The notes under the pieces are model-generated. The model was given only the letters and a program-made list of their open reading frames with translations, did not search any database and had not been told where the DNA came from. Shown here one piece after another: positions 1 through 21,185 of a stretch of 25,969 nucleotides of DNA. The first letter of the stretch is position 1. Each line of letters starts with the position of its first letter. This stretch comes from an uncultured Eubacteriales bacterium. GTDB taxonomy: Bacteria > Bacillota_A > Clostridia > Lachnospirales > Cellulosilyticaceae. The stretch lies in NCBI GenBank assembly GCA_900556665.1, contig USPX01000011.1, forward strand, positions 1 through 25,969. Reading direction: 5' to 3'. The position numbers and the translations under genes were made by a program.

Positions 1-275
1 ATGGCAACTTGTCTAACAAGTTCTTGTCCTATTGCCACATGTAATGGATGATTTTGATAACCCTCTAATGCTTCTTTACTTGTAAATGTTGAATAAAGTA
101 CTACATCATAGGCTGCTTCACTTGTATTGTAATTCTTACCTACTTCAATCTCTACAAGTCCTTCAATTTTTCCTTTTAGACCTTCTAACTTCGTTTTCAT
201 CTTTGCAATAATTTCTTCTTTATTCCCATGCACCTCATGTTCCTTTACTTGCCACATTACAATATGTTTAATCAT
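1..275 (-). CDS. Dabb (stress-responsive A/B barrel) domain protein, partial
   Basis: The reading frame starts at an ATG (273-275) preceded by AAAGGAG and runs off the window edge after about 91 codons, so the C-terminus is missing. The N-terminus (MIKHIVMWQVKE) and the internal segment YDVVLYSTFTSKEALEGYQNHPLH match the Dabb family of small dimeric ferredoxin-fold proteins. These occur in stress-responsive proteins and some cyclases or monooxygenase-like enzymes, so the biochemical role is unknown. It lies 39 nt downstream of the last pseudokinase gene with no terminator between, so it could be the last gene of that operon. The family call is fairly sure; operon membership is inferred. Confidence 0.75.
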   Translation of the reverse strand, partial: MIKHIVMWQVKEHEVHGNKEEIIAKMKTKLEGLKGKIEGLVEIEVGKNYNTSEAAYDVVLYSTFTSKEALEGYQNHPLHVAIGQELVRQVA

Positions 276-314
276 TTTATACACTCCTTTATTCATTAGT
301 TTCTACTATTTCAT

Positions 315-1622
315 TTAAACTGCATTCAAGCTGAAGGTCAATTTCTTTTCCCCCCAACCGCATGCTTGTAAACTCATTTCACCTTCATACTTACGTACAT
401 TTTTTACAATAGTACCAAGTCCATAAGGGTCTTTAGCAGCTGCACGTCTTATTAAATGTTCTGGATTACCCTTTTGCACTTTTTGACATTCTTCCTCTGG
501 TGTTGAATAATACACCTTAAACATAATATAACCTTTGTACCATACACCCTCTATACTAATACTCTTTTCTCTATCTTCTTTAATATGTTCGCATTGCTCT
601 AGTACATACTCTAAGGTATTGTCTAAAAGCATACAAAGCTCTACTGTTCCCATACCAATTTTTTCAGGTAAGCTAATATTAACCTTCATTTGAATGTTAT
701 TCCTACACGCTCTATCATATTTTTCATTGATTAATAAATCTAACATTGAGTTACCTGTAATAATATATGGATTGCCTTTTTCTTGTCTTGCCTCTATCTT
801 TCTAATAATACCTTTTAACTCTTCTAGTCTTTTATAATCCATATTCTTTAATAGCTGACTAATACTTTCAGTCGTCTCTTCCTCAAACCTCTCTTGAACA
901 CGTTTTATTTTATTAATTTGAACATATGTAGCTAAATGCTTCTTAAAGAATATCTTTTGAAGATTTCCTACTTCTTTTTCATAAGATAAAATCATATGAT
1001 GTTTGCTTATAAATATAGATCTTAAACTAACTATAAGTATTATATAAAGTACTAATAGTGCACTAAAAGATTGTGTTACCATCTGTCTATCTGCTAATTG
1101 CTGTATACTATGCATAACTATAAAATATCCAATTCCTATACCACTCATCAGGTACAGTTGTTTTGAGGAAAAACTATCATGTTCTCCCTTTTGGTAGATT
1201 GGTAAATCTCTAAACCATTGATTAAGTATTACATTTATCACAGTACTAAGTGCCCATGTTGCTAACCAAAATTGATATGCATAAATCTGATATAGATTTT
1301 GTACCAAAAAGCCATTCCATAAGTTACATGTATACATTACGTCTGCAATCAGTACATTACACCATATCTTCTGTGGGATACTTCCATCAAAAAACACATA
1401 GATAACAGTTCCTACTATGAGTGTTGAGAAAATAGGGAATACCCTTGAGTTATTATAAAGTAGGTAAATCCCTAAGAGTCCTCCTACCATAAGACTATAT
1501 TCTATTTTTTTTATTTCTGATAAGCTTTTTCTATTCAAGAATAAGCTACTACATGCAATGCAATTTGTTGCAACTAGTAAAAATAATATTAGTTTAATTA
1601 CTACTTGCTGTACACTCCACAT
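315..1622 (-). CDS. AgrC/ComD-like membrane histidine pseudokinase, paralog A
   Basis: This 435-residue protein has about six hydrophobic segments in residues 1-205, a linker helix, and a GHKL-like C-terminal domain. It shares the TGNSMLDLLINEKY motif (289-302) and the GVWYKGYI strand with the three genes upstream and aligns with the intact kinase at 6484-7833. The phosphoacceptor box RHDMKNH is absent; the aligned region (about 243-260) is acidic and has no His. The N-box reads DNTLEYV (334-340), with Tyr where the kinase has the Mg-binding Asn. A YGLG glycine box (400-403) remains. The ATG has a GGGGGGAG site and lies inside the end of paralog B (29-nt overlap), suggesting translational coupling. 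A catalytic kinase is unlikely; a ligand-binding or heterodimer partner role is inferred. Confidence 0.8.
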   Translation of the reverse strand: MWSVQQVVIKLILFLLVATNCIACSSLFLNRKSLSEIKKIEYSLMVGGLLGIYLLYNNSRVFPIFSTLIVGTVIYVFFDGSIPQKIWCNVLIADVMYTCNLWNGFLVQNLYQIYAYQFWLATWALSTVINVILNQWFRDLPIYQKGEHDSFSSKQLYLMSGIGIGYFIVMHSIQQLADRQMVTQSFSALLVLYIILIVSLRSIFISKHHMILSYEKEVGNLQKIFFKKHLATYVQINKIKRVQERFEEETTESISQLLKNMDYKRLEELKGIIRKIEARQEKGNPYIITGNSMLDLLINEKYDRACRNNIQMKVNISLPEKIGMGTVELCMLLDNTLEYVLEQCEHIKEDREKSISIEGVWYKGYIMFKVYYSTPEEECQKVQKGNPEHLIRRAAAKDPYGLGTIVKNVRKYEGEMSLQACGWGEKKLTFSLNAV

Positions 1623-2919
1623 CTGACTCCCCCCTTATACTTAGATTTAACTCTATTTTTTCTACCGCTTCCTCTTGTATAACCTCTATACTTCCTTGAT
1701 ACTTCTTCAAGCAGGCTTCAACTAGTAGTAATTCATTTGGTGTCTTTTCATAAGCAATGGCTTCCTCTCTTACTTCCTCTGCTAATGCATATGTTATTTC
1801 AAATACTAAGCACTTTTTAAACCATATCCCTTTGACTTCTATTTGCTTATTATTCCCCTTTAAACATGCCTTCATAACATAGTCCATTGTGTAATCTAAT
1901 ATAATATATAAATCTACATTATTAATATACAACGTATTCGGGATACTCACATTACTCTTAAGTGTAATATCTAATGCCTTAGCTCTTATTTCTTTTTCAT
2001 ATAAAATCATATCTACAATTTCATTACCTGTCATAACCTTTTTTGTACTATACGGAAAGTGCTCTTTGACATCTTGTATATATGCCTCTATCTCTTTGTT
2101 TTCTATAGTTTTAGAAGCACTTAGTAGTGCTCTCATTTCCTCTTCAATCTGAGTTCTCACTTCTTCCCCCATCTGATGTACTTCTTCCAAATGATTATAG
2201 CTTGAAATCTGTTTCTTAAACATCTTCTCCGACAGGCTTTTCTGTGTTAACTCGTAGTTCTTCTTTAATTTCAGCTGTTGATACTTAATAAATAATATCA
2301 CCATAAATATGGTAAGGTATAAACATAAGAAAATTACCCTTGAACTAATAACTACTTTTTCTTTATTAAGATAACTTCTACATAAAAATTGGAATATTGA
2401 AGTATATATAATACTCATTAAACTTAATCCTATACAACTAGCCCATGATAGATCATCATAATGCCCTTCTTTTCTTTGATACATGATTTCTTTTTTTAGA
2501 TAACAACTTACACACACGGCTACAAATAAAGTACCTATATATATCAAGAAATCTCCAGTTATAAAATTATTTATTTCATAGCCTATACGTAGATATATTC
2601 TATTTATCAAGATTCTTACAACAGTTTGCCCTGCATCAGAAATGGCATAAGTTAAAAAGAATGTGCATATACGTATTTTAAGCTTGCCTTCATGAAACAA
2701 GTTATTAAGTATAAGTGCTGGTAAAATAATATACCAGGTATTACTACTCATTCCCTGTATATATATTAAATCGGCACATACAAGTATTAAAATTCCCGCA
2801 TAAATTATAGTTCTTTTCCAGTTAAATTTAGCTATAGGCATAAATAAGTTTGTAATAACACTTAATTCTACTGTATATAAAGCACATAGCACTAATGTGC
2901 AGCATATAAACTTTAACAT
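1594..2919 (-). CDS. AgrC/ComD-like membrane histidine pseudokinase, paralog B (most degenerate)
   Basis: This 441-residue protein has hydrophobic segments across residues 1-212 and a degenerate GHKL-like domain. The family motif is kept as TGNEIVDMILYEKE (297-310), and the strand GIWFKKCLVFE replaces GVWYKGYI. There is no RHDxxNH box. The N-box reads LDYTMDYV, so both Asn positions of the intact kinase are Tyr (343 and 347). The glycine box is also gone: NELLLVEACLKKYQG stands where the kinase has GFGLGNIKQSVEKYDG. ATP binding therefore looks lost, although the frame is intact and the hydrophobic core is kept. The ATG follows GAGGTGAGAGG. It sits 12 nt after paralog C and overlaps paralog A, so it is an inner gene of the operon. 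Confidence 0.78.
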   Translation of the reverse strand: MLKFICCTLVLCALYTVELSVITNLFMPIAKFNWKRTIIYAGILILVCADLIYIQGMSSNTWYIILPALILNNLFHEGKLKIRICTFFLTYAISDAGQTVVRILINRIYLRIGYEINNFITGDFLIYIGTLFVAVCVSCYLKKEIMYQRKEGHYDDLSWASCIGLSLMSIIYTSIFQFLCRSYLNKEKVVISSRVIFLCLYLTIFMVILFIKYQQLKLKKNYELTQKSLSEKMFKKQISSYNHLEEVHQMGEEVRTQIEEEMRALLSASKTIENKEIEAYIQDVKEHFPYSTKKVMTGNEIVDMILYEKEIRAKALDITLKSNVSIPNTLYINNVDLYIILDYTMDYVMKACLKGNNKQIEVKGIWFKKCLVFEITYALAEEVREEAIAYEKTPNELLLVEACLKKYQGSIEVIQEEAVEKIELNLSIRGESDVECTASSN

Positions 2920-2931
2920 CCTCTCACCTCA

Positions 2932-4251
2932 TTAATTATTTACTGTATTAAAACAAATTTCTAATTTATGCCATTTACCTTCTGTATAAAACGCCAAGTT
3001 ACCTTCATACTTTTGCAGTACTTTATAAGCAGCGCCTAAACCATATGCATCATTTTCAATAGCAGTCTTCGTTTCTACTGTATTATTTAATGCTTCTATT
3101 TCCATATTTCCTGATTTACTAAACCAAATCTTAAATATAATATATCCTTTATACCAAACTCCTCTAATTTTAATTTTTCTCCCTTTGCCCAAAGTAATTT
3201 TTTCACAGGCTTCTAGAGCATAATCCATACTATTCCCTATTATTAAACATAGGTCTTCAACGCTTATGCCTAGCGCCTCTGGTAAACTTATATTTATACT
3301 TATAAGAATATGTTTCTCACACGCCACTTTATATTTTTCATTCATGATTGCATCGACAATGGTATTACCTGTTAAAATATTATTTTCTTCAATGATAAGT
3401 TGTTCTTGTAATGCTTCTACATATGGTTGCACACACTGAATTTGTTCTTCTTCTACAAGCCCCATTAACTTTGCAACCTCACTACCAACTACCTTCTTTT
3501 CTAATTCTCCAGTTCTTTCTAAACGTACTAAACGTTTATATGATTCTAACTGCTGATTAGAAAAACTATGTACTAATTCTGCTTCCTTTTCTTCATACTG
3601 TCTAACAATCATCTTATGACTCTTTATATAAAAGGCAAGACTACCTAATATAGCTATATACATTATTAATAGAGGTTTGAAATCTCCTCCTTCAGCTTTA
3701 ATGCCTTGTGTATAAGCTTTAATGCCTATATTAGCTGTCAATATAATTGCGATACCTACAAGGCTAAAAAACATGTTTTGATACCAAGATAATTTCTTAT
3801 ATATGGTTTTGTCTCTATAATATAAAACTGTACTTTTGAATAGCTTCGTAATGATCATACAAATAACTAATGTCCATATAGCTGGTACTGTAAGATTTCT
3901 TATTACTTTGACCCCCAATATATTACCTATATAATCAAATATTACCCACCAAAAGGTAAAGTTAATGTAATAAATAGCCTGTGTTAGCCAAAACTCCCAT
4001 AACTTATTCTTAAATAACATATGTATAAATATGAAGTTAAGCACTAGGAATAAATACAATCCTTCTTTTATTATCTTTGCATAAGCAATATATAATCCTA
4101 TGATAATCACTGAGATAGCTATATGTCCTACTACATTTTTTACACTTAGCTTTACTTTTCTTGAAAATATACTTATCAGCATAATATTTCCTATAAAAGC
4201 TAAGAGCCACATAATTACTTTATCTATTCCAAAGACTACACTCTCCACCAT
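2932..4251 (-). CDS. AgrC/ComD-like membrane histidine pseudokinase, paralog C (least degenerate)
   Basis: This 439-residue protein has about six membrane segments (residues 10-210) followed by the family's GHKL-like domain. TGNTIVDAIMNEKYKVA (294-310) is almost the same as in the true kinase. The N-box is GNSMDYALEAC: the first Asn (340) and the Asp (343) remain, but the Mg-binding Asn is Tyr344. The glycine box AYGLG (402-406) is retained. No His-Asp-x-x-Asn-His box is present in the dimerisation helix (about 235-275). This copy therefore keeps the most nucleotide-site character while lacking the phosphoacceptor. The start has an AAGGTGAG site upstream. It lies 40 nt downstream of paralog D and 12 nt upstream of paralog B. 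Confidence 0.8.
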   Translation of the reverse strand: MVESVVFGIDKVIMWLLAFIGNIMLISIFSRKVKLSVKNVVGHIAISVIIIGLYIAYAKIIKEGLYLFLVLNFIFIHMLFKNKLWEFWLTQAIYYINFTFWWVIFDYIGNILGVKVIRNLTVPAIWTLVICMIITKLFKSTVLYYRDKTIYKKLSWYQNMFFSLVGIAIILTANIGIKAYTQGIKAEGGDFKPLLIMYIAILGSLAFYIKSHKMIVRQYEEKEAELVHSFSNQQLESYKRLVRLERTGELEKKVVGSEVAKLMGLVEEEQIQCVQPYVEALQEQLIIEENNILTGNTIVDAIMNEKYKVACEKHILISINISLPEALGISVEDLCLIIGNSMDYALEACEKITLGKGRKIKIRGVWYKGYIIFKIWFSKSGNMEIEALNNTVETKTAIENDAYGLGAAYKVLQKYEGNLAFYTEGKWHKLEICFNTVNN

Positions 4252-4291
4252 ATACTCACCTTTTCACCTCTATTTTTATCAATATTCCACT

Positions 4292-5605
4292 CTATCTAAC
4301 TGCATTAAAACTTAATTCTAACTTACTTCTATTAGACTCTATTGTTTCACTAAGTTGTCCTTCATATTTCTCTACATATCTTTGGATAATTTGTATTTCC
4401 GTCTTTTTATCCTCTACTATTTCTTCTGCATGGTTATACCATAACTTTAAAATAATATATCCCTTGTACCAGACACCCTCTACAAGTATAGACTTATCCC
4501 CTATTACCTGCTCACATTGTCTTATAGCATAGTCTAGGGCTTGTCCTACAATAATGCTAATTTCTGTACTGTTTAATGCAATATGATCTGGAATACTAAT
4601 CTTATTAGCAAGTTTAATGCCCTTTTCTTTTGTTATAATATACTTTTCTCTTAGTAAGGCATCTAACACTCTATGTCCTGTTAACAAAAATTCTTGATTC
4701 ATAGGTTCTACTGCACTAGCCAGCTGCGCTGCATTTCTCTGCATTTCTTCAAAACCAGCTTCATGAGCTAACTGTGCTAACCCACTAATTTGATGATGTA
4801 AGAGTTCTTTACTCTTTTGATTAGATAAATCTTGTTTCTCTAGTTGTTGTGCTGTTGTTACATGCTTCTTGGTAAAACTTTGAATTAATAGTTCTTCTTT
4901 ATTGGTATATGTCCTATGTATCTCCCCATAAGATTGCACCATCATGACACTTCCTAATATAAGGGTTGCATAAATGCATATGAATAACCAAACGTTTCCT
5001 TGAGCTAAATCTCCTAATGCACCATCTATAGCATTCATACCTTCATTTGACAAGCTCCCAACACCTGTTGCTATAATTAAAATTACTATTTTCTTTATAG
5101 GAGGAATATTTCTGTAACACGCCTTATCTTTATAATAAAAAGGTGTTCTCTTTATTAACATTGCGGTAATTATTACACTTATTACTTCCGGAATACATAC
5201 TAGCTCATTATCTAGTATCTCTTCTATAATTCCCAGGCCACCTACTTTAAATAAAATCATACTTAATACTAGTTCTATAACTCCTACAGTCACTACGAGT
5301 ATCATATATGCTATCCATACACTCCACACCTTGTAAAATATTGTACCTTTGTACAAAAATAATACAAATAAAATTCCCCAAAGCCCATACAGCGATACTT
5401 CTATGTCTTCTATACTGCTACCCTCAAAATAAATAAACAAAGAACACAGGGCACCAATACCACCATATAATAGTATTCTCTCTAAACTAATCTTACTTCT
5501 CTCTAGAAAAATCCTTACAAACATGCCTAGGCAAAATGTAATCTCTAAACTAAGCACTATTATCTTGAAAACCTCTATTATACTCCTCCACATACCTAGC
5601 ACCAT
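4292..5605 (-). CDS. AgrC/ComD-like membrane histidine pseudokinase, paralog D (first of the array)
   Basis: This 437-residue protein has membrane segments in residues 8-225 and the GHKL-like domain with TGHRVLDALLREKY (309-322) and GVWYKGYIILK. The N-box reads VGQALDYAIRQC, so the first Asn is Gln355 and the Mg-binding Asn is Tyr359. The glycine box is missing (IQIIQRYVEKYEG). A nearby HHQ (270-272) does not align with the catalytic His of RHDMKNH. It is the promoter-proximal member of the four-gene array, with a candidate promoter at 5643-5671. The start is uncertain: the first ATG (5605) has GGAG only 1-2 nt away, and an ATG at 5593 is an alternative. Function is unknown; a non-catalytic sensor or partner is inferred. 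Confidence 0.77.
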   Translation of the reverse strand: MVLGMWRSIIEVFKIIVLSLEITFCLGMFVRIFLERSKISLERILLYGGIGALCSLFIYFEGSSIEDIEVSLYGLWGILFVLFLYKGTIFYKVWSVWIAYMILVVTVGVIELVLSMILFKVGGLGIIEEILDNELVCIPEVISVIITAMLIKRTPFYYKDKACYRNIPPIKKIVILIIATGVGSLSNEGMNAIDGALGDLAQGNVWLFICIYATLILGSVMMVQSYGEIHRTYTNKEELLIQSFTKKHVTTAQQLEKQDLSNQKSKELLHHQISGLAQLAHEAGFEEMQRNAAQLASAVEPMNQEFLLTGHRVLDALLREKYIITKEKGIKLANKISIPDHIALNSTEISIIVGQALDYAIRQCEQVIGDKSILVEGVWYKGYIILKLWYNHAEEIVEDKKTEIQIIQRYVEKYEGQLSETIESNRSKLELSFNAVR

Positions 5606-5642
5606 TCTCCATTCTGTGTATGTTATATTGCTATGTAATTTT

Positions 5643-5671
5643 AGTATATTAAATTTTGATTACACTTTGAA
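5643..5671 (-). promoter_or_regulatory. Candidate promoter of the pseudokinase array
   Basis: On the minus strand a TATACT -10 box (5643-5648) and a weak TTCAAA -35 box (5666-5671) are 17 bp apart. They lie about 40 nt upstream of the first pseudokinase start. No clear LytTR direct repeat was found upstream. This is by-eye evidence only. Confidence 0.4.
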
Positions 5672-5704
5672 TAGAAAATTATGCACTTTTATGACAATTA
5701 AATA

Positions 5705-5747
5705 AGGATTATTTGCATATTTATACCAATTAACTGCAAATAATCCT
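5705..5747 (-). terminator. Hairpin downstream of the 84-residue protein gene
   Basis: A perfect 13-bp inverted repeat, AGGATTATTTGCA (5705-5717) and TGCAAATAATCCT (5735-5747), has a 17-nt loop. The following minus-strand sequence is only loosely T-rich, so it may be a weak terminator or a processing site just upstream of the pseudokinase promoter. Confidence 0.5.
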
Positions 5748-5799
5748 CTAACTCATTGCCCTATTTTTGTGGTTAGTTACTTATTAACTACACATTTTA

Positions 5800-6054
5800 T
5801 TAACTACTATAAAACTGTTGGTGATTATATCCTTTCATATTTTCCGTATAATCATCTAATACAGCTTTATACTTTGTATAGCTCTTTTCCGAAAGCTTCC
5901 CCTCCTTATAACTCTCTTCTACCAAAGCAATTGCATCCTTTCTAGATTGAATCGCTAAATCCTTATAATTATTTTCTAAGTACAGTTTTAGATCATTTAT
6001 TAATACTTCAATTTGTTGCTCTACTGGATTTTTAATCTTATGCTTAAAAAACAT
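5800..6054 (-). CDS. Small helical protein of unknown function (84 aa)
   Basis: I do not recognise a family. The protein is highly charged, has no signal peptide or membrane segment, and appears almost entirely helical (for example residues 9-34, 37-53 and 56-73). The ATG follows AAGGTGGTGG. It lies between a small secreted-peptide gene and the pseudokinase array on the same strand. A terminator-like hairpin precedes it and a weaker hairpin follows, so it may be expressed by readthrough or as its own unit. Immunity proteins of peptide bacteriocins are often small helical bundles encoded next to the peptide, so that role is possible; only position and size support it. Confidence 0.6.
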   Translation of the reverse strand: MFFKHKIKNPVEQQIEVLINDLKLYLENNYKDLAIQSRKDAIALVEESYKEGKLSEKSYTKYKAVLDDYTENMKGYNHQQFYSS

Positions 6055-6117
6055 ATTCCACCACCTTAAGCTTATATCATAATTTCTTTATTTCTATTAT
6101 AATAAATCTCAAACACA

Positions 6118-6147
6118 AAAAATGAGCTAATTACTTAGCTCATTTTT
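6118..6147 (-). terminator. Intrinsic terminator after the peptide gene
   Basis: A perfect 13-bp stem pairs 6118-6130 (AAAAATGAGCTAA) with 6135-6147 across a 4-nt loop. The A and T runs at its two sides make it look usable in both directions. On the minus strand it ends the short peptide transcript about 20 nt after the stop codon. Confidence 0.8.
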
Positions 6148-6166
6148 AATATGTACATTTTTATAA

Positions 6167-6328
6167 TTAGATGATAAATGATTTTTTATTTGTTGTTCTT
6201 GATGCTAAAAAAGCTTTGCCACCTACAACTTTTTCTTGTAATTCTTTTTTAGTTAACTCCTCAAATTCTATTTTTAAATCATTTACATTTACTTTTTCAC
6301 TTGATTTGAATAATAATTTTTTTAACAT
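6167..6328 (-). CDS. Small cationic peptide precursor with double-glycine-like leader
   Basis: This 53-codon frame encodes a charged leader containing LTKKELQEKVVGG (residues 25-37), followed by a 16-residue cationic tail, KAFLASRTTNKKSFII. The leader resembles the LS-x-x-EL-x-x-I-x-GG pattern of peptides exported by C39-peptidase ABC transporters, although the EL pair sits one residue further from GG than usual. I chose the ATG at 6326-6328 because AGGGGG lies 9 nt upstream; an in-frame ATG at 6335-6337 directly abuts that site. It lies just downstream of the histidine kinase, has its own promoter and ends at a terminator. A ComC-like signal or a bacteriocin-like peptide is inferred. It has no Cys, and no AgrB-like or exporter gene is in the window. 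Confidence 0.72.
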   Translation of the reverse strand: MLKKLLFKSSEKVNVNDLKIEFEELTKKELQEKVVGGKAFLASRTTNKKSFII

Positions 6329-6366
6329 ATTGTTCATCCCCCTTAGATAACTATTTGATTAACTAT

Positions 6367-6394
6367 ATTGTACAATAAAATTATATTTTTTCAA
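6367..6394 (-). promoter_or_regulatory. Promoter of the peptide gene
   Basis: On the minus strand TTGAAA (6389-6394) and TACAAT (6367-6372) are separated by 16 bp, a good sigma-A type promoter. It lies about 40 nt upstream of the peptide start. The -10 box overlaps the palindrome TTGTACAA (6368-6375). Confidence 0.6.
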
Positions 6395-6406
6395 TTTTAT
6401 TCGTTA

Positions 6407-6439
6407 AATATGTCTTCGTCTTTGTCTAAAATGTCAGTT
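6407..6439 (-). promoter_or_regulatory. Candidate LytTR regulator operator (direct repeats)
   Basis: Two ATGTC half-sites (plus-strand 6410-6414 and 6431-6435; GACAT on the coding strand) are exactly 21 bp apart. The proximal one begins about 35-40 bp upstream of the -10 box. LytTR regulators such as AgrA and ComE bind roughly 9-bp direct repeats about two helical turns apart in this position. A LytTR regulator is encoded in the same locus, so autoregulation is plausible. The repeats are short and imperfect outside the core. Confidence 0.45.
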
Positions 6440-6483
6440 TTCCTTACATGAGTTGTAGTATAAAATAATGAATTTGTGACGAC

Positions 6484-7833
6484 CTATGCTTGAAGTGTTT
6501 TTACTGACTTAGTATTAATCTCCACTTGTAATTTAAATTGGAAATTATTACAACTTGTAGTAACTGTACCATCATACTTTTCAACACTTTGTTTAATGTT
6601 ACCAAGACCAAAACCGTGATTTTTCTTATCTTTCTTAATAGTTAATACCTTGTTTTTAACCTTTGAGACATTTTCTTCTTTCATAGTATTGGTAATGTCG
6701 TATAAGAAATAGCCTGCTGTATAAGTACATTTAATACTAATCTTTCTTTGAGCAGGATTTTCTATACGCTCACAGGCTTCTATAGCATTATCAATACTAT
6801 TAGATAATATAATACATAGGTCTATAAATTCCATATCAATATTGCCATCTACTCCTACCTTAATATCCATATTAATTTGTTTTTCATTAGCAACTGCATG
6901 CTTTTCATTAAAAATGGCATCGACAATGGTATTTCCTGTTGTAACAAGGACAACTTTGTTTTCTACATTATTCTTTATATTACTAATATACTTTTGTAGT
7001 TCTTCCAACTTATTCTCTTTTAATAAGCCTTCCATCCCTATAAGATGATTTTTCATATCATGTCGAATGCCTCTAATCTCCTTATTACCTTCTTCCATTT
7101 TTTCATAATATTTTACTTTATCCTTAAATTGTGTTTCTATAAGCTCATTAACTTTTGTATAATAATTTCTACCAAAATTTTTATCTATGCCTAACACCAA
7201 TACCATGAATGATAAAGTGCTTAAGGTTATCCATAACGACAAGTAAAACTGCCCTAAACCATTGAATTCTGGAGTTTCACACACTCTATACCCAATACTA
7301 GGTTGTATATCTATACATAAAGCTAATATGCACAAAAGCACACCTTCAGTCTTTGAATAAATAATACTTTCACATTCAGTAGGACTATAAAGATCAAACC
7401 TTTTAACTATGCTTGTACTTGCCCATACCATTAAAAATACTATTACACTACCTGCAAAGTAATAGATAAACCAGTTAGACCACACACTATCATATAACCA
7501 ATCCACTATTGGAGCTATATTAAATTCTAACGTTGCATTCATTGCTACTACTATTACAACTTTCCATATCTTAGTTAATATCTGTTTTTCTTTAAATAGA
7601 AAACATATATTAACAACAACAAGATAAGTTAGTGCATTAAATATTTCCCAGTCATTAAATAGCACTGCTTGTATTACAAATACTAAAATAGCACAAGTAA
7701 TCCATTGTATAATCCTTTTTGGTGTAAGCTTTGCTTTTGTAGAAATTAAGCGCATCATTAAATACTCTGTTCCAGTTATTAAAGCCATTAACATAAATGC
7801 TATAAGGTAGTGCACCAGAATACTATTCACCAC
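6484..7833 (-). CDS. AgrC/ComD-type sensor histidine kinase
   Basis: This 449-residue protein has six or seven membrane segments in residues 1-215 and an intact catalytic half. The phosphoacceptor box RHDMKNH (257-263) has His258. The N-box is NSIDNA (345-350) and the glycine box is GFGLG (407-411). It probably senses an extracellular peptide and phosphorylates the regulator encoded just upstream; the two genes overlap by 11 nt, a strong sign of coupling. The start is GTG (7831-7833) after AAGGAGGG, with a second GTG next to it. The short peptide gene downstream is a candidate ligand (inferred). This is the only kinase in the locus with a complete active site, and it is the reference for judging the four paralogs. 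Confidence 0.9.
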   Translation of the reverse strand: MVNSILVHYLIAFMLMALITGTEYLMMRLISTKAKLTPKRIIQWITCAILVFVIQAVLFNDWEIFNALTYLVVVNICFLFKEKQILTKIWKVVIVVAMNATLEFNIAPIVDWLYDSVWSNWFIYYFAGSVIVFLMVWASTSIVKRFDLYSPTECESIIYSKTEGVLLCILALCIDIQPSIGYRVCETPEFNGLGQFYLSLWITLSTLSFMVLVLGIDKNFGRNYYTKVNELIETQFKDKVKYYEKMEEGNKEIRGIRHDMKNHLIGMEGLLKENKLEELQKYISNIKNNVENKVVLVTTGNTIVDAIFNEKHAVANEKQINMDIKVGVDGNIDMEFIDLCIILSNSIDNAIEACERIENPAQRKISIKCTYTAGYFLYDITNTMKEENVSKVKNKVLTIKKDKKNHGFGLGNIKQSVEKYDGTVTTSCNNFQFKLQVEINTKSVKTLQA

Positions 7834-8542
7834 GTTCCCTCCTTAGGAAGGCGCTAAATTTTTCTTTAAATGATTTAAGTTTTAGTCTACTAATGTATAC
7901 AACATCTCCATTTTGCATAGTAACTGTACTTTGATCGTGTTCCCTGATATATACCATATTAATAAGATATGATTTATGAATTCTAAAGAAGTTACGATCC
8001 GTCAGTTGCTTTTCCAATTCATTAATCTTATTGTCTACGATGTATGGTTTTTTCATCGTATTGACCTTAATTTTTCTGTCTTGTGTTTCGAAATATACTA
8101 TATCAATAAGTGGTATTTGAATAAATTTTTGTCCCTGATTAAGTACTAAAAATTGACTTTCTCTCTCCTCTTTTCTCTTTAATGCAAGATCTAATGTTTG
8201 TTCAAGTTCATCTTTTTGTATTGGTTTTAATAAGTATCTAAGTGTGTTCACCTCAAATGCCTTATATGCTTCTTCTTGATGACTCGTTGTAAATATAATA
8301 TCACTTGTATGTGTTTTTTCACGTATCTCTTTTGCTGTCTCTATACCGCTCATGCCGTCTTGTATTGCCACATCTAAGCAAAAAATATCATATTGATCAA
8401 GTGGTACTTTTAATAAATCTTCTCCTCTTAAAAAATCATCTATGGAATACTCTATTTTGCGTTCCTCGAAGTACCCTTTTAGCAGTCTTATCAAGTGGTC
8501 TCTAAATATTTTTTCATCCTCACATATAGCTATTCTAATCAT
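7823..8542 (-). CDS. LytTR-family response regulator (AgrA/ComE-like)
   Basis: This 239-residue protein has an N-terminal receiver domain with acidic residues at 8-10 (CEDE), phosphoacceptor Asp57 (CLDVAI) and Lys108 in LLKPIQ. A LytTR DNA-binding domain spans about residues 133-235, with typical segments IVYFETQDRKI and FFRIHKSYLIN. It should activate genes carrying paired direct repeats; the closest candidate is upstream of the peptide gene (6407-6439). The ATG has AGGGGG 7 nt upstream. It is the first gene of the regulator-kinase pair. Family and partner are clear; the target genes are inferred. Confidence 0.92.
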   Translation of the reverse strand: MIRIAICEDEKIFRDHLIRLLKGYFEERKIEYSIDDFLRGEDLLKVPLDQYDIFCLDVAIQDGMSGIETAKEIREKTHTSDIIFTTSHQEEAYKAFEVNTLRYLLKPIQKDELEQTLDLALKRKEERESQFLVLNQGQKFIQIPLIDIVYFETQDRKIKVNTMKKPYIVDNKINELEKQLTDRNFFRIHKSYLINMVYIREHDQSTVTMQNGDVVYISRLKLKSFKEKFSAFLRRERGE

Positions 8543-8616
8543 TCTATGCCCCCTAATTTCAATGATTTATTTCGTAGCTTATATATCAGTACTCTCTGCT
8601 ATAATGCTATAACTCC

Positions 8617-8645
8617 ATTCTATCATAATTTTATAATCTTTTCAT
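8617..8645 (-). promoter_or_regulatory. Weak candidate promoter of the regulator-kinase pair
   Basis: On the minus strand ATGAAA (8640-8645) and TAGAAT (8617-8622) are 17 bp apart, giving a leader of about 70 nt before the regulator gene. The match is weak and the surrounding 290-nt gap is very AT-rich, so other starts are possible. Apart from this and the GH9 terminator I see nothing else in 8543-8834. Confidence 0.3.
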
Positions 8646-8763
8646 ACATTTTATTATTTTTAGAATAAAATATTGTATATTTTTATAGTCACATACACTA
8701 ATTTTTAGTAACTTTTACATTACTTTATTCTATTACATATTTCTAGATACTTTATTCCTATAT

Positions 8764-8800
8764 AATAAAAAGCCCAGCAAATTTTATTATTTGCCAGGCT
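8764..8800 (-). terminator. Terminator of the GH9 cellulase gene
   Basis: AGCCCAGCAAA (8771-8781) pairs with TTTGCCAGGCT (8790-8800). In the minus-strand RNA the two central positions form G-U pairs, and a U-rich tract follows. It separates the cellulase unit from the regulator-kinase unit. Confidence 0.75.
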
Positions 8801-8834
8801 CTCTATTTACTTTATAAAAAATCAAATTCTTAAA

Positions 8835-11297
8835 TTATTTAACAGTTACTGTTCCAATATTAGACCAGTCACTATTACAGATACGAAGGTCTGCTGTTAC
8901 TGTTCCATTTCCTGCATCAATTGTTTGAGTGCTTGTGAATGTGATTACTAATTCATATTCATTATTGCCAAGTGATTTAATAGTTGCTTTTGTATTACTT
9001 GTAAGTGCTACATACCAAGGTGCTGATGTAAATTGGCCACCTACGTTATCAATGTATACTACTGGTGAAGTTAAGTCAGTAGCTTTGAATTTCTTTGTAA
9101 CAGAAATTGTATTAAGAGCTGTTTCTTTATCAGCTGTAACTACTGCTTTAACACCAATTTGATTACCATTTACTGTAAATGCAACATTTGCACCTTCTGT
9201 TGGTGTTGGATCTACTGGATCTACTGGGTCTACTGGGTCTACTGGATCTACTGGATCTACTGGATCTACTGGATCTACTGGATCTACTGGGTCTACTGGA
9301 TCTACTGGATCTATTGGATCTATTACAATATCACCAGGTTCACTACCAAATACTAATTTATCTGCATCATATACTGCCATATTTGTAGCTTTTACCATAC
9401 TATTTGAACTACTGTTTGCTAAACCTTGTAATGAATAGCTCTTTGTGTAATCCCATTTGCATGGTGCAGCAATTCTAAGTTGTACTTCATTTCTACATTC
9501 AGATTGTCCACCTGGGTAGATTTTAGCACCTGTTAAATCTACATCTACATAGTAAATGTTTTTAGATGCATCATATGGTAATACTTTTGATACTTTTGTT
9601 CCAGTATATTGTTTGTAACTAGCTGAAACTGTCATATCATTTGCTGTATAACCATTATTAATAACATCTGTTAAATCTAAGAATACTCTATATTTTAATT
9701 GATCTGTTACTCTTGCTGGCCATGCTGTATGGTTACGAAGCATGAATTTGAATTCAACGAAGTTGATTTTATTTGTATTATCTTGAGCATTGATACCTGC
9801 TTCAAGGAAGATTTCTTCGCCTACTTCTTCAATTGCATTTAAGTTTTCAATAGGTGTTCCACCATATTCTTTATACATTTTAGCCATAAGACCTACAAAA
9901 CCTGCATTGTAGTCACAAGCTACTTCGTTTGCTACATAGTCTGTAATAACGTCTTTGTAACCATCACTACTATTTGGTCCACCTACTAATGCACCTACTA
10001 ATGTGTGGCGATGTTGTTGTGGTGCACCACTAAGGTTATTTTCCCATCCACCATGTGCTGTTCTATGGTGTGGTCTTGTTGGTGCATTTTCACCAAATCC
10101 ACATACAAAGCTACGTCCTGTGCTTCCTAACATATAATCAGCTTGTGTTTTAGCAAATGCTCTGTATTCATCTGCTTTCTTAGCACTACATCCATCCCAA
10201 TCAGCATAAACAGAAGCCATGAAACCTGCTGTTGCTGCATATCTAAGTGGCCCCCACTCTGTAAGCCATGCAAGTCCTTTTGGTGTACGTGTAATATGTT
10301 CACCATCTTTATCTGTTGCCCAGTAATCTAAATGGTTTTCAATATTTTCTCTGTATTCATCTTTACCTGTGATTTGTGCTAAAAGAAGAGATGCGCCTAA
10401 ATGTACATCATCCCAGTTGTGGCCCCAAGTATATGCTTTTTCTGTGCCACCTTGTTTTTCTGTACCAAAGTAAGTTGTAGCTTTTTCTGCTTTTGCTAAA
10501 TATGTTTTATCTCCTGTTGCTTTATATAACCAAGCACCAGCCCATGCAAGTTCATCTTGGTATCCACTCCATGATTTATAGAATGAACCAGCAATTGTAT
10601 CATAATATGTATCGCCACCCATAGCTTCTGCAAGAGCATATAATTGTTTAGCATGTGTTAAACATTTTTCTGCATAAGCTGGATCACTATCTTTGAATGC
10701 AATAGCACAAGCTGCAAGAGAAGCTGCTGTTTCACCTGCTACTGCTGATCCTGGTTGAGCTACGTTTACTTTATAAGATGGTCTAGCCATTTGCATAATT
10801 TCTGATGCACCCCAGAAAGCATGGTCAGCATTACCATCACCTACTTGGAAATAGTATGTATCTGGATCTGGATTACATTTAATAAAGTAATCATTTGCCC
10901 ATTTGATTTGCTCTAAGATAAATTTATCTTCACCACTCTTTTCATAGATATCTTTATCTTCTAAGTAAGACCAAGCAAGCATTGTAGATGTATATGACAT
11001 TGGTAAGTTAAATTTAACGTTATCACCAGCATCATACCAACCACCTGTTAAATCAAGACCATTATCTGCTCCATCATTTAAAGCAGAGTCACCACGCCAG
11101 TTGTTACGGATTGTTTCTGGTAATTTACCAGATTCTTGTAATTCATAAAACATAATACCTTTTTGTAATGCTTCGGCATAATTAAAATTAGTTGGAGCTG
11201 CCATTAAATTTGCAGCTGGCATTGTTGCAATAGTAGATGCTACCATTGCTACTGAAACCATACTAGACCATAATTTTTTATTTTTATTTTTATTCAT
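8835..11297 (-). CDS. Secreted GH9 endoglucanase with CBM3c and a C-terminal unassigned module
   Basis: This 820-residue enzyme has a signal peptide (about 1-34) and a GH9 catalytic domain (about 37-480). DAGD is at 89-92 (Asp92 as the likely base), RPHHRTAHGG at 408-417, and NEVACDYNAGF holds Glu458 as the likely acid. A CBM3c module follows (about 490-655), a layout typical of processive endoglucanases. A linker of eleven DPV repeats (663-695) leads to a module at about 702-820 that is nearly duplicated in the GH48 enzyme next door. There is no dockerin or S-layer repeat. It should cut cellulose outside the cell with the GH48 enzyme. The ATG has AAGGAAGGG upstream. The linker DNA is an 11-fold 9-bp repeat prone to length change. 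Confidence 0.95.
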   Translation of the reverse strand: MNKNKNKKLWSSMVSVAMVASTIATMPAANLMAAPTNFNYAEALQKGIMFYELQESGKLPETIRNNWRGDSALNDGADNGLDLTGGWYDAGDNVKFNLPMSYTSTMLAWSYLEDKDIYEKSGEDKFILEQIKWANDYFIKCNPDPDTYYFQVGDGNADHAFWGASEIMQMARPSYKVNVAQPGSAVAGETAASLAACAIAFKDSDPAYAEKCLTHAKQLYALAEAMGGDTYYDTIAGSFYKSWSGYQDELAWAGAWLYKATGDKTYLAKAEKATTYFGTEKQGGTEKAYTWGHNWDDVHLGASLLLAQITGKDEYRENIENHLDYWATDKDGEHITRTPKGLAWLTEWGPLRYAATAGFMASVYADWDGCSAKKADEYRAFAKTQADYMLGSTGRSFVCGFGENAPTRPHHRTAHGGWENNLSGAPQQHRHTLVGALVGGPNSSDGYKDVITDYVANEVACDYNAGFVGLMAKMYKEYGGTPIENLNAIEEVGEEIFLEAGINAQDNTNKINFVEFKFMLRNHTAWPARVTDQLKYRVFLDLTDVINNGYTANDMTVSASYKQYTGTKVSKVLPYDASKNIYYVDVDLTGAKIYPGGQSECRNEVQLRIAAPCKWDYTKSYSLQGLANSSSNSMVKATNMAVYDADKLVFGSEPGDIVIDPIDPVDPVDPVDPVDPVDPVDPVDPVDPVDPVDPVDPTPTEGANVAFTVNGNQIGVKAVVTADKETALNTISVTKKFKATDLTSPVVYIDNVGGQFTSAPWYVALTSNTKATIKSLGNNEYELVITFTSTQTIDAGNGTVTADLRICNSDWSNIGTVTVK
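9213..9311 (-). repeat. Eleven tandem 9-bp units encoding a (Asp-Pro-Val)n linker
   Basis: Plus-strand units of TCTACTGGA or TCTACTGGG repeat with a 9-bp period across 99 bp. The period keeps the reading frame, so gain or loss of units would change linker length without disrupting the enzyme. Long reading frames on the plus strand here are by-products of the repeat. Confidence 0.9.
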
Positions 11298-11440: not shown

Positions 11441-14131
11441 TTATTTTACTGTACCAACATTAGACCAGTCACTGTTGCAAATACGGATATCTGCTGTTAC
11501 TGTTCCATTTCCATTATCGATTGTTTGGCTACTTGTGAATGTGATTACTAATTCATATTGGTTGTTACCAAGTGAATTAACTACTGCTTTTGTATCACTT
11601 GTAAGAGCCATGTACCAAGGAGCTGTATTGAATTGAGCACCAACATTATCAATGTATACTACTGGTGATTTTAAGTTAGTAGCTGTGAATGTCTTTTTAA
11701 CTGTAACTTTATTAAGAGCTGTTGCTTTATCAGCTGTAACTACTGCTTTAACACTGATTTGGCCACCTTGACCTGTTAATGTTACATTTCCAAATTCTTC
11801 AACTGGTGGTACAGTTGAATCTACAACTGAAACTGTTGCATCTCCAAATCCTTTCTTACCTTTATCAGATACTGCTACTACTTTAACTTCGAATTTTTTG
11901 TTTGCATCTGCATTTGTTACGTTGAATGTGTATACACCTTCGCTTACTTTTGTTACTGTTTTACCAGCAACTGTAACATCAACGCTATCTACAGTACCTT
12001 CTTCGATTGATGTAGCTACATTAACTGTTACTGTTTGAGCACCATCTTTAACATCTACTTCTTTATCAGCTGTTACTGTTACTACTGGAATTGGATCTTC
12101 ATCACCAATACCGAATAAGAAGTCCATTGTTCCTAAAGCAACAGCGAAGTCACATTGTGCCCACCATCTATGGTATTGCATATCGAAGTGGAATTCTCCT
12201 GTCTTCTTATATTCTTCATAAGCAGCTTGAAGTCTTGGGAAGTCTTTATCTTCTTTGTATTTAGAACGGATATCAAGGAATGTAACACCTGGTTTGATTT
12301 CATCTCCATTAGCCATCTTACCTGTGAATCCTTGTGGAATATACACTTCTTGTTCGAAGATACGAAGGAAGTCTTGACGGTCTTCTGAAGATACGATACC
12401 TTTATCATCTTGGTAGTTATCCCAGATACAGTCTAATAAGTTTTTAGCTGTTGTATAATATGTATTCCAATCTTGTTCTGGACTATATTTCTTAGTAGCT
12501 GCTGCATAGTAAAGAAGTGCATTAGATAATGAACCAGCTACACCAAGGTCTTGACCATATGTATCAACTTTTACGTGAAGACCTGTATTTTCTTTGAATT
12601 TACCATCCCATTTTTGTCCAGCTTGTGTTTCATTTGTCCATGTTTCTGGTTGACCTTCCCAAATTAAGTTACTTGGAATTTCAAATGTAGTACCATTTAC
12701 ATGTACTTCTGATGCAGCCCAAGCAGCCCATTTGTCAAGTAATGGTTTAACTCTTGTATCACCTGATAAGTAGTAGTACTCAGCCATACGTTGCATTGAC
12801 CAAGCTTGCATACCGAACCATCTGTTACTTGATGGGTCATGATATACTGGGTCTTCATCATAAATTGTACCGTAGAATGTTGCAGCACCTGCTGGATATT
12901 TTTGATATGATCCACCGTAAGAGTTAGCAGAACCACCAGCGATACCACCTTCAGCAGATTGTAACCATTGATAGAATTGGATTTGTCTTTCTAAGCTAGC
13001 AGCCCAGTCTTTTTTAGCATTTGCAGCTTTTGGTTGAATATCGTTATCTGTTGATAAGATATAAGCAGCCATTGGAGATTGGTAACCAAAGTGGTTATAA
13101 CTTGAACCGATTCTCCAACCCCAAGAACCATCAAGAGCACCACCCCAAGAATAGTACCAAGATAATAAGTAACCACAAGAATCATATCCGTTACCAGGAG
13201 TTCTACCTTGTGCACCTTGTTTCATGAAGTATTTATCGAACATTGAATATCTTAAATAGTCACCCATTTTAGCAGCTTTTGCTGTGTATTTAGAAAGGTC
13301 CTTGCCATATGGTTTAGCCCATTCTTTAGCCCAGTACATAGCTTGTACGGTACGAGCATCAGCATCTGGTGCATCTGTATATCTCCATTGTTTTGAGTAG
13401 TTAGCATCAATTGTGAATAATGGAAGGAATCCATTTGTACCGCCCCATTTGAATGCTTCCCAAGATGGATGTGTAACTGTTTCAAATGTTGATTCTTGTT
13501 CTCCACGTTGGAATGTGTTGATGTAAGATGGTGTAGATTTTCCATCTCCTCTTTGACCATATCCATACCAGTTATCACAGTCGATTAACCAGTGCATACC
13601 ATACATTGTTTTTGTACCATAAGCATTTGCTAATTCATTTTTGATAGGGTCTTTACCAACTGGTTCTCCAAAGTGTAATTTACTTGGATAGTAGTCTGGT
13701 AATGGATGTTCTGGTGCATATGTAGCATCTTCAACTTGGTTTGTTGGTTGATCTTTTTCTGTTGGAATGAAGTAGTCTTCGATAACTCTCCATGATTCGT
13801 CGATACCAGAGAAATCTCCTGTTAATCTACCTCTCATAGCCTCTAACCATACATAGTAACTAGCAGCTTCACTAGTTGATTCATGTCCTTGGTCAGGAGC
13901 TTCACAGTTCATTGTTTCAATTGAGTGGTAAGGAATACCATCTGGGCTGAAGAAATCAGATGTTCCTCTACCTTGAGAATCTTTTTGACCAACGATTTTG
14001 TCGTAAAATTGTAAGAAACGATCTCCGTAATCAATATCTTGATTTGTTGCTGCAAGTGTTGTAAGAGGTGCTAAGCATTGTGCGCCTACAAGTACGCTTG
14101 TTATGAAACCATAAAGTTTTTTGTTTTTCAT
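11441..14131 (-). CDS. Secreted GH48 cellobiohydrolase with Ig-like domain and C-terminal unassigned module
   Basis: This 896-residue enzyme has a signal peptide (about 1-28) and a full-length GH48 catalytic domain (about 30-680). The motif [15 protein letters not shown] holds Glu77 and Glu88; Glu88 is in the place of the accepted general acid of clostridial GH48 enzymes. An Ig-like or X2-like domain follows (about 683-779), then a module at about 780-896 that is very similar to the end of the GH9 protein. There is no dockerin or CBM3, so it probably acts as a free or surface-bound enzyme. GH48 enzymes degrade cellulose processively from reducing ends and work with GH9-CBM3c enzymes. The ATG has AGGAGGAG upstream. 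Expression probably starts from the promoter at 14293-14320. Confidence 0.95.
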
Positions 14132-16511: not shown

Positions 16512-16614
16512 CTGTGTTTTTTAACTATTGTATATCCTTTGATTGCTTTATTTTGCATATACTTTATTTTATTTTATTTATGATGTATGATTAAATTCAA
16601 GGACGGTGATTTTT

Positions 16615-17655
16615 ATGTCTTATATCTATCCTAATCTAAAAGGGGACCGTACCACTTATAAAGTTTATTTTGTTTATAAAAAGAAGAAACTATATCTAGG
16701 TTTATTTGATTCTAATGAAGCTGCTACTAAGGCGCTTCAAGATGCCCATGAGATTATGTGTGCTTCTTTTGGTACTTTAGACTTTCCCCATTCTCTTATA
16801 GACTTTAAAAAGATTATTAGCCTTTGTAATTTTAGAGATCATAAAATGTATATTAAGAATCCTATTTATTTAATGGACTCTTACTTCCATTATTATTTGT
16901 CTAAAGATATCATTTTAACATTTGATATGAAGGATTTGTTATTCTTCTCTACTTATAAAATAAATAAACGTGGTAATTATTTATATACATATGATAGTAT
17001 CTCCCAACAAAGTCTTTTAAATCGCTTTGGAATATTAAATCATAGTACTGCTGGTAAAGATTATGTCTTTAAAAACGGGAATCCTTACGATTTTAGAAGA
17101 GATAATATCGAAGTCATCAATACTTATAAAGGGGTTTGTAAAAAAATTATAGATGACCAAACATTTTATACTGCAACAATATATACTACTCAGCCTTTAA
17201 TCTTAGGCCATTATCCTTCGGAAATTACAGCTGCTATTGCTTATAACAAGGCTGCCGACTTCCTTATGGCCCAATCAGACGTACAACGGGAATACATACT
17301 TAATACAATTCCATTTATTACAAAGGCTGAGTACGATGCCATTTATGCGAGTATTAAGCTTTCTCCAAGACTTAAAACACCTAGTGCAACTCGTAAACGT
17401 GCCATTGCTGGCAATACATATCGTGGCGTTAGCCAGACCAAAAGTGGCTTTAGGGCAAATATTGGTTATAATAGAAAACAAATTCACTTAGGTATCTACC
17501 CTACTGAAAAACGTGCGGCTCAAGCATATAATTTTGCTTCCTTCTATCTTTTTGGCCAAAATGGCCACATCAATGATGTAACACCTCTTGTACATAATAG
17601 TGATGCTGCTAAGGTTGCTAGTCACCTTGAAAAACATAATCTTACTAAAAAATAG
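16615..17655 (+). CDS. Triple AP2-like repeat protein with degenerate HNH core
   Basis: I start this 346-residue protein at the ATG (16615-16617), which has AAGGA 11 nt upstream; an in-frame GTG at 16606 lies too close to that site. Three segments look like AP2 DNA-binding repeats: about residues 9-50 (YKVYFVYKKKKLYLGLF), 170-218 (YKGVCKK to AYNKAADF) and 268-315 (YRGVSQTKSGFRANI to AAQAYNFASF). Between the first and second, DYVFKNGNPYDFRRDNIEVI (about 149-168) resembles the DHIDGN-x-x-DNR-x-NL core of HNH homing endonucleases, but the metal-binding His is Val. It therefore looks like a homing-endonuclease derivative that lost nuclease activity. Its DNA target is unknown. It stands alone and ends at a strong shared terminator. 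Confidence 0.75.
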   Translation: MSYIYPNLKGDRTTYKVYFVYKKKKLYLGLFDSNEAATKALQDAHEIMCASFGTLDFPHSLIDFKKIISLCNFRDHKMYIKNPIYLMDSYFHYYLSKDIILTFDMKDLLFFSTYKINKRGNYLYTYDSISQQSLLNRFGILNHSTAGKDYVFKNGNPYDFRRDNIEVINTYKGVCKKIIDDQTFYTATIYTTQPLILGHYPSEITAAIAYNKAADFLMAQSDVQREYILNTIPFITKAEYDAIYASIKLSPRLKTPSATRKRAIAGNTYRGVSQTKSGFRANIGYNRKQIHLGIYPTEKRAAQAYNFASFYLFGQNGHINDVTPLVHNSDAAKVASHLEKHNLTKK

Positions 17656-20550: not shown

Positions 20551-20684
20551 GCCCTAGAAGGGCACATTACTGGCAGCATCTTAAAAGATGCACCGATTGG
20601 TCCGCCAATCGCATTACTTTCACAGGCAGCCACTAAAGTGGCTGTCTTTTTTGCCTCTTAATTCTTGCGACCCGTAAACGGGTC
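20551..20684. other. Chain of five short hairpins (possible structured RNA or DNA)
   Basis: Perfect small stems follow each other: GCCCT/AGGGC (20551-20563), GCATCT/AGATGC (20576-20591), CGATTGG/CCAATCG (20594-20611), CAGCCAC/GTGGCTG (20627-20644) and GACCCG/CGGGTC (20669-20684, inside the 3' end of tnpA). Loops are 3-4 nt, and three of them are TAAA on the plus strand. This exceeds what transposition ends need. It may be a structured 3' region of the tnpA transcript, a relic of a guide-like RNA from a former tnpB-bearing element, or an independent RNA ending at the T-run at 20647-20652. Confidence 0.55.
20627..20652 (+). terminator. Plus-strand terminator downstream of the rhomboid-like gene
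   Basis: The CAGCCAC/GTGGCTG stem (20627-20644) with a TAAA loop is followed by a run of six T (20647-20652). It would end plus-strand transcripts entering the insertion sequence and shield tnpA from antisense reading. Confidence 0.7.
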
Positions 20685-21119: not shown

Positions 21120-21124
21120 TTGAC

Positions 21125-21185
21125 AAACCTCCTTTGTTATTTGATACGGTTGGCGAACCATTATCATTCTTAACAAAGGAGGTTT
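21125..21185 (-). promoter_or_regulatory. Ribosome-site-hiding stem in the tnpA leader
   Basis: AAACCTCCTTTGTTA (21125-21139) and its exact complement at 21171-21185 form a 15-bp stem that contains the AAAGGAGG site of tnpA. The loop holds a small GGTT/AACC hairpin. In enterobacterial IS200 a similar leader stem blocks translation, so the same control is likely here. Confidence 0.75.

Follow-up and report, generated by a model that had tools for sequence, protein, structure and literature searches.

Why does a bacterium carry, in a row, four genes for proteins that are built like peptide-sensing histidine kinases and lack the residues of catalysis? The question is raised by positions 315 to 5605 of contig USPX01000011.1 (assembly GCA_900556665.1), from an uncultured Eubacteriales bacterium placed in the family Cellulosilyticaceae; the window, that is, the whole stretch of DNA analysed, comprises 25,969 nucleotides. 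A first-pass annotation had described here four intact, closely spaced or overlapping open reading frames (ORFs) on one strand, of 435–441 residues, and all four are indeed complete in the window, spaced according to their coordinates by 40 nt, 12 nt and then a 29-nt overlap. We call them PK1 to PK4, for pseudokinases, and compare them with the kinase encoded nearby. At the level of sequence, the data establish their architecture, the loss of the H-box, N-box and G1 residues, their common origin, purifying selection on PK1 and PK2, and a setting composed of a double-glycine (GG) peptide, an HPK10-type kinase and a LytTR regulator. We hold with high confidence that PK1–PK4 are a selected pseudokinase family. 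They most likely work as regulatory receptors, with the neighbouring kinase as the first candidate partner, and we tentatively favour, at a little short of an even chance, the view that they are non-catalytic receptors which modulate the peptide circuit, this being the best explanation of the locus as a whole.

4292–5605, minus strand: PK1, 437 residues; multi-pass membrane half, long helix and GHKL-like pseudo-domain
2932–4251, minus strand: PK2, 439 residues; architecture as PK1, YGLG G2-like motif retained
1594–2919, minus strand: PK3, 441 residues; no Pfam GHKL match, N-box Asn replaced by Tyr
315–1622, minus strand: PK4, 435 residues; 29-nt overlap with PK3, N-box Asn replaced by Tyr
6484–7833, minus strand: canonical AgrC/ComD-class histidine kinase with RHDMKNH and SIDNAIEAC; presumed peptide receptor

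The start of PK1 is ambiguous between 5605 and 5593, the latter matching the first ATG of PK1 in Cellulosilyticum ruminicola.

Loss of catalytic residues

The RHDxxNH box had been reported missing from all four proteins, and among the five aligned proteins of the window RHDMKNH is found only in the kinase. The loss extends further than this. Across 25 PKs and 17 comparison kinases in a sequence alignment, the H-box column holds His in none of the PKs and in all 17 kinases, so that at the level of sequence no aligned His is conserved; the N-box Asn is retained in 17/17 kinases and is Tyr in 25/25 PKs, while the G1 Asn, again present in every kinase, is Tyr, Phe or Cys in every PK. The N-box and G1 Asn residues serve the nucleotide and magnesium site. 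These counts, and the tree below, omit P0022 (100% identical to P0004), P0033, the 155-residue fragment L009, L016 (502 residues, the same gene as the G018 kinase at L025), L015 (the same as the G002 kinase at L024) and the C. ruminicola loci L002–L005, L010, L012–L014 and L020–L023, this species entering with its PK1 as P0015 and its kinase as L001_HK. The partial P0033 (295 residues), which stands outside the counts, has the N-box Tyr too.

Other parts of the domain have changed in some members. In PK1 and its homologues the ATP-lid region is shortened and a GLG-type G2 motif, absent also from PK3, is missing; PK2 and PK4 retain YG(L/M)G. Around the H-box, seven of eight PK1 sequences have a His three residues past the aligned position, with no acidic residue following it, and the eighth (P0021) has Tyr; the 24-column stretch here is free of His in 4/5 PK2 and 8/9 PK4 sequences. 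All four PKs share the TG(N/H) and G(V/I)W(Y/F)K stretches, as had been noted. The latter was misread as part of the GHKL core, however: it is a signature of the PK family (Trp in 23/25, the preceding Gly in 25/25), and the commonest letters there in the 17 kinases are Q, P, Y and I.

With Pfam HATPase_c_5 (cut-off 22 bits), PK2 passes at 40.6, PK1 (21.7) and PK4 (21.3) fall slightly under and PK3 has no match; at E ≤ 0.01, 29 of the 32 members of the alignment of PKs and kinases (A5) match this family. A profile search of PDB sequences gave no match at E ≤ 1. In a fold search with an AlphaFold2 model of PK2 (pLDDT 76), AgrC ranks first among PDB folds. The model has six helices plus one running into a long helix, followed by an alpha/beta GHKL-like domain, and thus the multi-pass membrane half, long helix and GHKL domain of the AgrC/ComD/HPK10 class; the model of the kinase has a similar architecture. 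Since the catalytic residues of histidine kinases are missing, we class the PKs as pseudo-histidine kinases of HPK10 descent: derived from a kinase, devoid of the catalytic His and, as judged for PK1 and PK2 from a single pair of species, under selection.

Origin and spread

Maximum-likelihood analysis of the cytosolic half, over 42 rows and 225 columns, places the 25 PKs together behind a branch with support 100/99, and PK1 to PK4 fall into four clades, each starred. The PKs and the four kinases linked to peptides (those of the window, C. ruminicola, G002 and G018) are set apart from 13 other kinases by a 99/98 branch, although long branches meet at several joins, some of them inside the PK group, as the programme warned. 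The simplest reading of these sequences is that a kinase of the type found at such loci was duplicated and that the copy lost catalysis, a single time, before it was amplified.

Protein searches returned four further homologues of PK2 and at least seven of PK1 (P0015–P0021), and a PK3 and PK4 profile at least 13 matches, namely two PK3 (P0023, P0024), nine PK4 (P0025–P0033), P0022 (which is PK4) and P0034, a normal kinase. The homologues elsewhere are about full length, at 41–58% identity, and the matches with a named organism belong to Cellulosilyticum alone (C. ruminicola, P0015; an uncultured Cellulosilyticum, P0033). Equal longest-contig values suggest that PK2 and PK4, once also PK3, are linked in four assemblies. 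A DNA pattern for GVWYKGY-like letters matched one of 392 genomes of the order, that of C. ruminicola, and the PK2 profile, run against 96 relatives at 1e-20, found C. ruminicola and five kinases with His and Asn, six matches in all.

Selection and decay

Selected divergence rather than decay had been proposed, and this stands for part of the array. We compared the window with C. ruminicola JCM 14822, a single species pair, by the Nei–Gojobori ratio of nonsynonymous to synonymous substitution rates (dN/dS), which is approximate here since dS reaches 0.9–1.2 for the PKs and the kinase. PK1 gives 0.143 (membrane half 0.22, GHKL part 0.08), PK2 0.185 over its in-frame pieces and 0.22 in a shifted middle, and the kinase 0.247 (membrane half 0.38, the rest 0.14). 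The regulator (0.024) and a downstream Dabb-domain gene (0.057) are more constrained, and the cellulase genes GH9 (0.30) and GH48 (0.43) less so, both at lower dS. Inside the PK subfamilies, conservation is highest in the GHKL part.

Purifying selection on PK1 and PK2 and the intact frames in the window thus agree with the proposal. Against it, frameshifts in relatives, which would speak for decay, are partly found. In C. ruminicola PK1 is intact and PK2 is readable with two compensating frameshifts by T-runs, but the front of a frameshifted PK3 is fused to the tail of PK4, with a deletion and an in-frame stop, so that a C-terminal remnant is all that is left of PK4, together with a remnant of PK3. 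Sequencing error may account for the shifts in PK2, less easily for the PK3/PK4 deletion. The remnants have dN/dS of 0.10–0.22, which suggests that the decay is recent.

A peptide circuit beside cellulases

On the minus strand the genes run in the order GH48, GH9-CBM3, LytTR regulator, kinase, GG-leader peptide, an 84-residue ORF, PK1–PK4 and the Dabb-domain gene, which is truncated by the edge of the window and is the sole other gene seen beside the PKs downstream. Since the regulator is 97.5% identical to that of C. ruminicola JCM 14822, the source is probably a Cellulosilyticum, and so a relative of fibre degraders of the rumen.

11441–14131, minus strand: GH48 cellulase
8835–11297, minus strand: GH9-CBM3 cellulase
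7823–8542, minus strand: LytTR response regulator, adjoining the kinase gene; 97.5% identity to its C. ruminicola counterpart
6426–6456, minus strand: direct repeat ACAACTCAT-13-ACATTTTAG, period 22; putative operator for the response regulator at the peptide gene
6167–6328, minus strand: GG-leader peptide gene, 53 residues; leader ELTKKELQEKVVGG ending in VVGG, predicted mature peptide KAFLASRTTNKKSFII
6118–6147, minus strand: intrinsic terminator-like stem after the peptide gene; 13 pairs, T tail
5800–6054, minus strand: 84-residue ORF; dN/dS 0.068 (window against C. ruminicola)

The first-pass annotation names neither a peptide gene nor an exporter. The window has a peptide gene at 6328–6167, and a peptide occupies the same slot in C. 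ruminicola (L001; ...EDLQQKVIGG/ARAKFYRKERAAVKKIAGW), in G002 (L024; ...KREKQKISGG/ALAYCSAVMREFISIFIP) and in G018 (L025; leader ...KKEQLYNISGG), and across the four loci the leaders are similar and the cores dissimilar by eye. Similarity to ComC is weak and below cut-off for the G002 peptide (E 8e-4) and, in Pfam, for the window peptide (E 0.047); the C. ruminicola peptide shows none, and the window peptide has no NCBIfam match. ComCDE and Blp systems have a comparable layout, and as in these a LytTR regulator adjoins a multi-pass kinase, with a GG-leader precursor identified in four loci from its motif and placement. An ABC exporter with a C39 peptidase adjoins the peptide locus in G002, where it scores 705.8 bits against a cut-off of 523.85 for the peptide cleavage/export family, and in G018; in C. 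ruminicola it lies with an HlyD-like partner on a contig separate from the circuit, and none is found among the window ORFs. Judged by gene content, the setting of the PKs is a ComCDE/Blp-like peptide circuit beside GH48 and GH9 cellulases. In C. ruminicola, two ORFs that by eye resemble bacteriocin-type GG peptides (L038, 5049–5548) stand beside the C39 exporter and HlyD-like gene.

We considered the 84-residue ORF as a part of the system and rejected it as probably a bystander: although strongly conserved, it has homologues in just four of 11 genomes (85% in C. ruminicola, 65% in G009, 61% in G007 and 59% in G002), and that in G002 sits about 1 Mb from the circuit.

Period-22 repeats of the ACAnnTYA type precede the peptide gene in 4/4 loci (window; L001, 7793; L024, 9677; L025), matched in 0/200 mononucleotide shuffles each. 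Their layout is similar to that of the operator of about 30 bp reported for the gallocin circuit (PMC8545106). A matrix built from the window, L001 and L024 recovers the peptide promoter of G018 as well (14.8; 0/200 shuffles); on the G018 bacteriocin region it scores 13.2, with 5/200 shuffles as good. Genome-wide, the exact pattern exceeds its reversed control in G018 (16 against 4) and G002 (6 against 1), and less so in C. ruminicola (G001; 10 against 5). Eight of the nine G001 sites away from the peptide promoter were inspected; five lie within long open frames and three are intergenic, one of these 94 bp ahead of a long ORF that resembles an RNA-polymerase subunit. Inspection of four of the five other G002 sites placed two in frames, one 42 bp before a 154-residue ORF and one 455 bp before a secreted protein (L053). 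Of the 16 sites in G018 three were examined, and a GG peptide lies downstream of each, at 103 bp, 315 bp and 1.16 kb. In G018 (L025, 8867–9922, and other sites) genes resembling those for GG peptides and bacteriocins stand behind the same repeats, which may constitute a peptide-controlled regulon of several operons.

Before the PK operon no such operator was found, the best score being 7.2 with 70/200 shuffles as good. Besides the terminator-like stem after the peptide gene (the terminator-like scan overall gave 2 sites against 1.9 expected in shuffles), a long-loop stem lies before PK1 at about 5747–5705 and recurs in C. ruminicola (L001, about 8518–8557) with a compensating change from A-T to G-C. 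Given these two preceding stems and the missing operator, the PK operon is probably transcribed alone. A promoter scan of 200–8900 gave 36 sites against 54 in shuffles, and its predictions were therefore not used.

In three genomes (that of the window; C. ruminicola, L001; G002, L024) the GH48/GH9 pair lies next to the circuit. The regions upstream of both cellulase genes in the window and in L024, and upstream of GH9 in L001, contain no repeat that stands out as operator-like (best scores 4.9–9.8, with 39–145/200 shuffles as good), and direct control of the cellulases by the peptide circuit is thus unsupported where tested. The only hint toward cellulose genes is the L053 match (G002:C1:3107670-3107699) 455 bp before the secreted protein, which may be due to chance; the letters of this protein look to us CBM3-like. 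In C. ruminicola H1, according to the main text of PMC5733062, counterparts of these cellulases are among the most transcribed genes, and linked cellulase and LytTR genes respond to substrate; neither 'histidine kinase' nor 'quorum' occurs in that text. From its linkage, Crum_2623 would be the L001 regulator.

Some further features of the window were seen in passing. The C-termini of GH9 and GH48 (about 8835–9160 and 11441–11760) carry a similar module of about 100 residues, NVGxQFxxAPWY...ICNSDWSN, with no Pfam model above cut-off, which by eye is also present in the C. ruminicola pair, and the GH9 linker between CBM3 and this module (about 9160–9390) contains a run of Asp-Pro-Val repeats. 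The protein at 16606–17655 has YRGV...GxYPTEKRAAxAYN-like stretches, which we take to resemble AP2-type DNA-binding domains, and 20658–21176 presumably encodes an IS200-type transposase.

How might the pseudokinases act?

We propose that the ancestor of the PKs was a duplicated kinase of the peptide-sensing type, which would have lost its autophosphorylation and nucleotide-site residues once, in the common ancestor, the copies then being kept as a receptor family. The PKs would contact the active kinase in mixed dimers or higher oligomers, with the GHKL-like domain, presumed nucleotide-free, as the contact module, and would set the threshold of the kinase by inputs other than the pheromone. 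Between the window and C. ruminicola the membrane half of the kinase is 46% identical, that of PK1 65% and the first 142 residues of PK2 65.5%; since in this pair the kinase seems to change in step with the peptide, and PK1 and PK2 less so, PK1 and PK2 are probably not readers of the peptide. This mode of modulation is held yet more cautiously than modulation as such.

Several points weigh against a modulatory role. First of all, the circuit dispenses with some PKs, since PK3 and PK4 are broken in C. ruminicola and since in G002, which carries the circuit, the PK2 profile at 1e-20 finds only the kinase; there, the order GH48-GH9-regulator-kinase-peptide is followed by the C39 exporter and an HlyD-like gene in the slot of the PKs. 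Second, without an operator before the PK operon, co-regulation of the PKs with the circuit is unsupported. Third, a mixed dimer is not favoured by sequence, because the mean identity of the dimerisation helix between PKs and peptide-linked kinases (0.17–0.21) is no higher than among PKs (0.16–0.24); as a sign of dimer partners this measure was dropped as uninformative. Fourth, none of the at least seven further PK1 matches shares a longest-contig value with PK2 or PK4 matches, so that linkage of all four genes elsewhere is unsupported. Finally, the high dS noted above limits the precision of the selection estimates.

An alternative, which we regard as unlikely but as the strongest of the rivals, is that the PKs form a hetero-oligomeric receptor complex among themselves and, without involvement of the peptide circuit, signal to a partner outside the locus, for example in the control of cellulases. 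A probably separate transcription unit, the apparent retention of PK2 together with PK4, and PK1 and PK2 membrane halves more conserved than that of the kinase would all fit, as would the response to substrate of the linked genes for cellulases and LytTR in strain H1 (main text of PMC5733062); but only the Dabb-domain gene is seen downstream of the PKs, and no PKs were found in G002 despite the same cellulase pair. That the PKs are decoys or confer a form of immunity, binding own or foreign GG peptides and so blunting their effect, is improbable. Such a role would suit the multi-helix membrane half (kept in the PK2 model) and the position downstream of the peptide gene, but divergence is fast in the peptide and in the membrane half of the kinase and slower in the membrane halves of PK1 and PK2, and a decoy has no need of a strongly conserved cytosolic pseudo-domain. 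Slightly less probable again is docking of the phosphorylated regulator by the PKs as sensor, sink or scaffold, in the manner of DivL of Caulobacter: the PKs share with DivL a kinase fold without the phospho-accepting His and, presumably, a regulatory use, but DivL is reported, in passages of PMC4211667, as a single PAS protein that keeps the N, G1 and G2 boxes, whereas the PKs are tandem membrane proteins that have lost N and G1, and their helix region is just 15–21% identical to that of the window kinase. Very improbable, finally, are phosphotransfer by PK1 after the fashion of Spo0B, for which the shifted His of seven PK1 sequences would serve but for the Tyr of P0021, the missing acidic neighbour and the scarcity of His in PK2 and PK4, and, to the same degree, a decaying relic, which the broken PK3/PK4 and frameshifted PK2 of the C. 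ruminicola assembly would suggest were it not for four intact window genes, dN/dS of 0.14–0.19 for PK1 and PK2 and 0.10–0.22 even for the PK3/PK4 remnants, and the near full-length homologues of other assemblies.

Known systems and significance

RetS/GacS of Pseudomonas aeruginosa differ from the PKs in their membrane halves and concern a single protein. In RetS/GacS one sensor protein controls another by hetero-oligomers, as we propose for the PKs. The pair is named in PMC9491836, which describes a ChrS variant of Corynebacterium glutamicum in which a dead kinase acts via a paralogous kinase, and native ChrS–HrrS heterodimers were seen; this variant is a laboratory-evolved frameshift, whereas the PKs are natural, and truncated ChrS itself gave no significant two-hybrid contact. 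AgrC of Staphylococcus aureus (PDB 6e95, 6e52 and 4bxi) is a working kinase, in contrast to the PKs without the His, the N-box Asn and the G1 Asn. The closest circuit is that of gallocin in Streptococcus gallolyticus, GSP-BlpHR-BlpS, for which passages of PMC8545106 describe a secreted peptide, a multi-pass kinase, a LytTR regulator, a conserved operator of about 30 bp and a fourth component; the latter is a LytTR-only repressor, whereas here it would be a pseudokinase array in a locus abutting cellulases.

To our knowledge, few bacterial pseudo-histidine kinases have been studied, most of them single proteins. Among the papers listed in searches of the literature, largely of open papers, we recognised none on pseudokinases in peptide quorum sensing or on peptide signalling in Cellulosilyticum; the combination of Cellulosilyticum, quorum sensing and histidine kinase had no match, and PMC13289728 does not mention Cellulosilyticum.

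The PKs may represent, though we put this at somewhat under one chance in two, a natural, amplified receptor family whose histidine-kinase core was wholly turned from enzyme to signalling module, with the His and the N-box and G1 Asn lost and Tyr fixed at the N-box position, and which forms the fourth component of a peptide quorum-sensing circuit by major cellulases of a fibre degrader. As a family present in several copies, they would offer a clean system for the role of a GHKL domain without nucleotide and for the influence of dead receptors on a live circuit. A peptide signal beside cellulases further raises the question of whether signalling between cells is coupled to fibre degradation.

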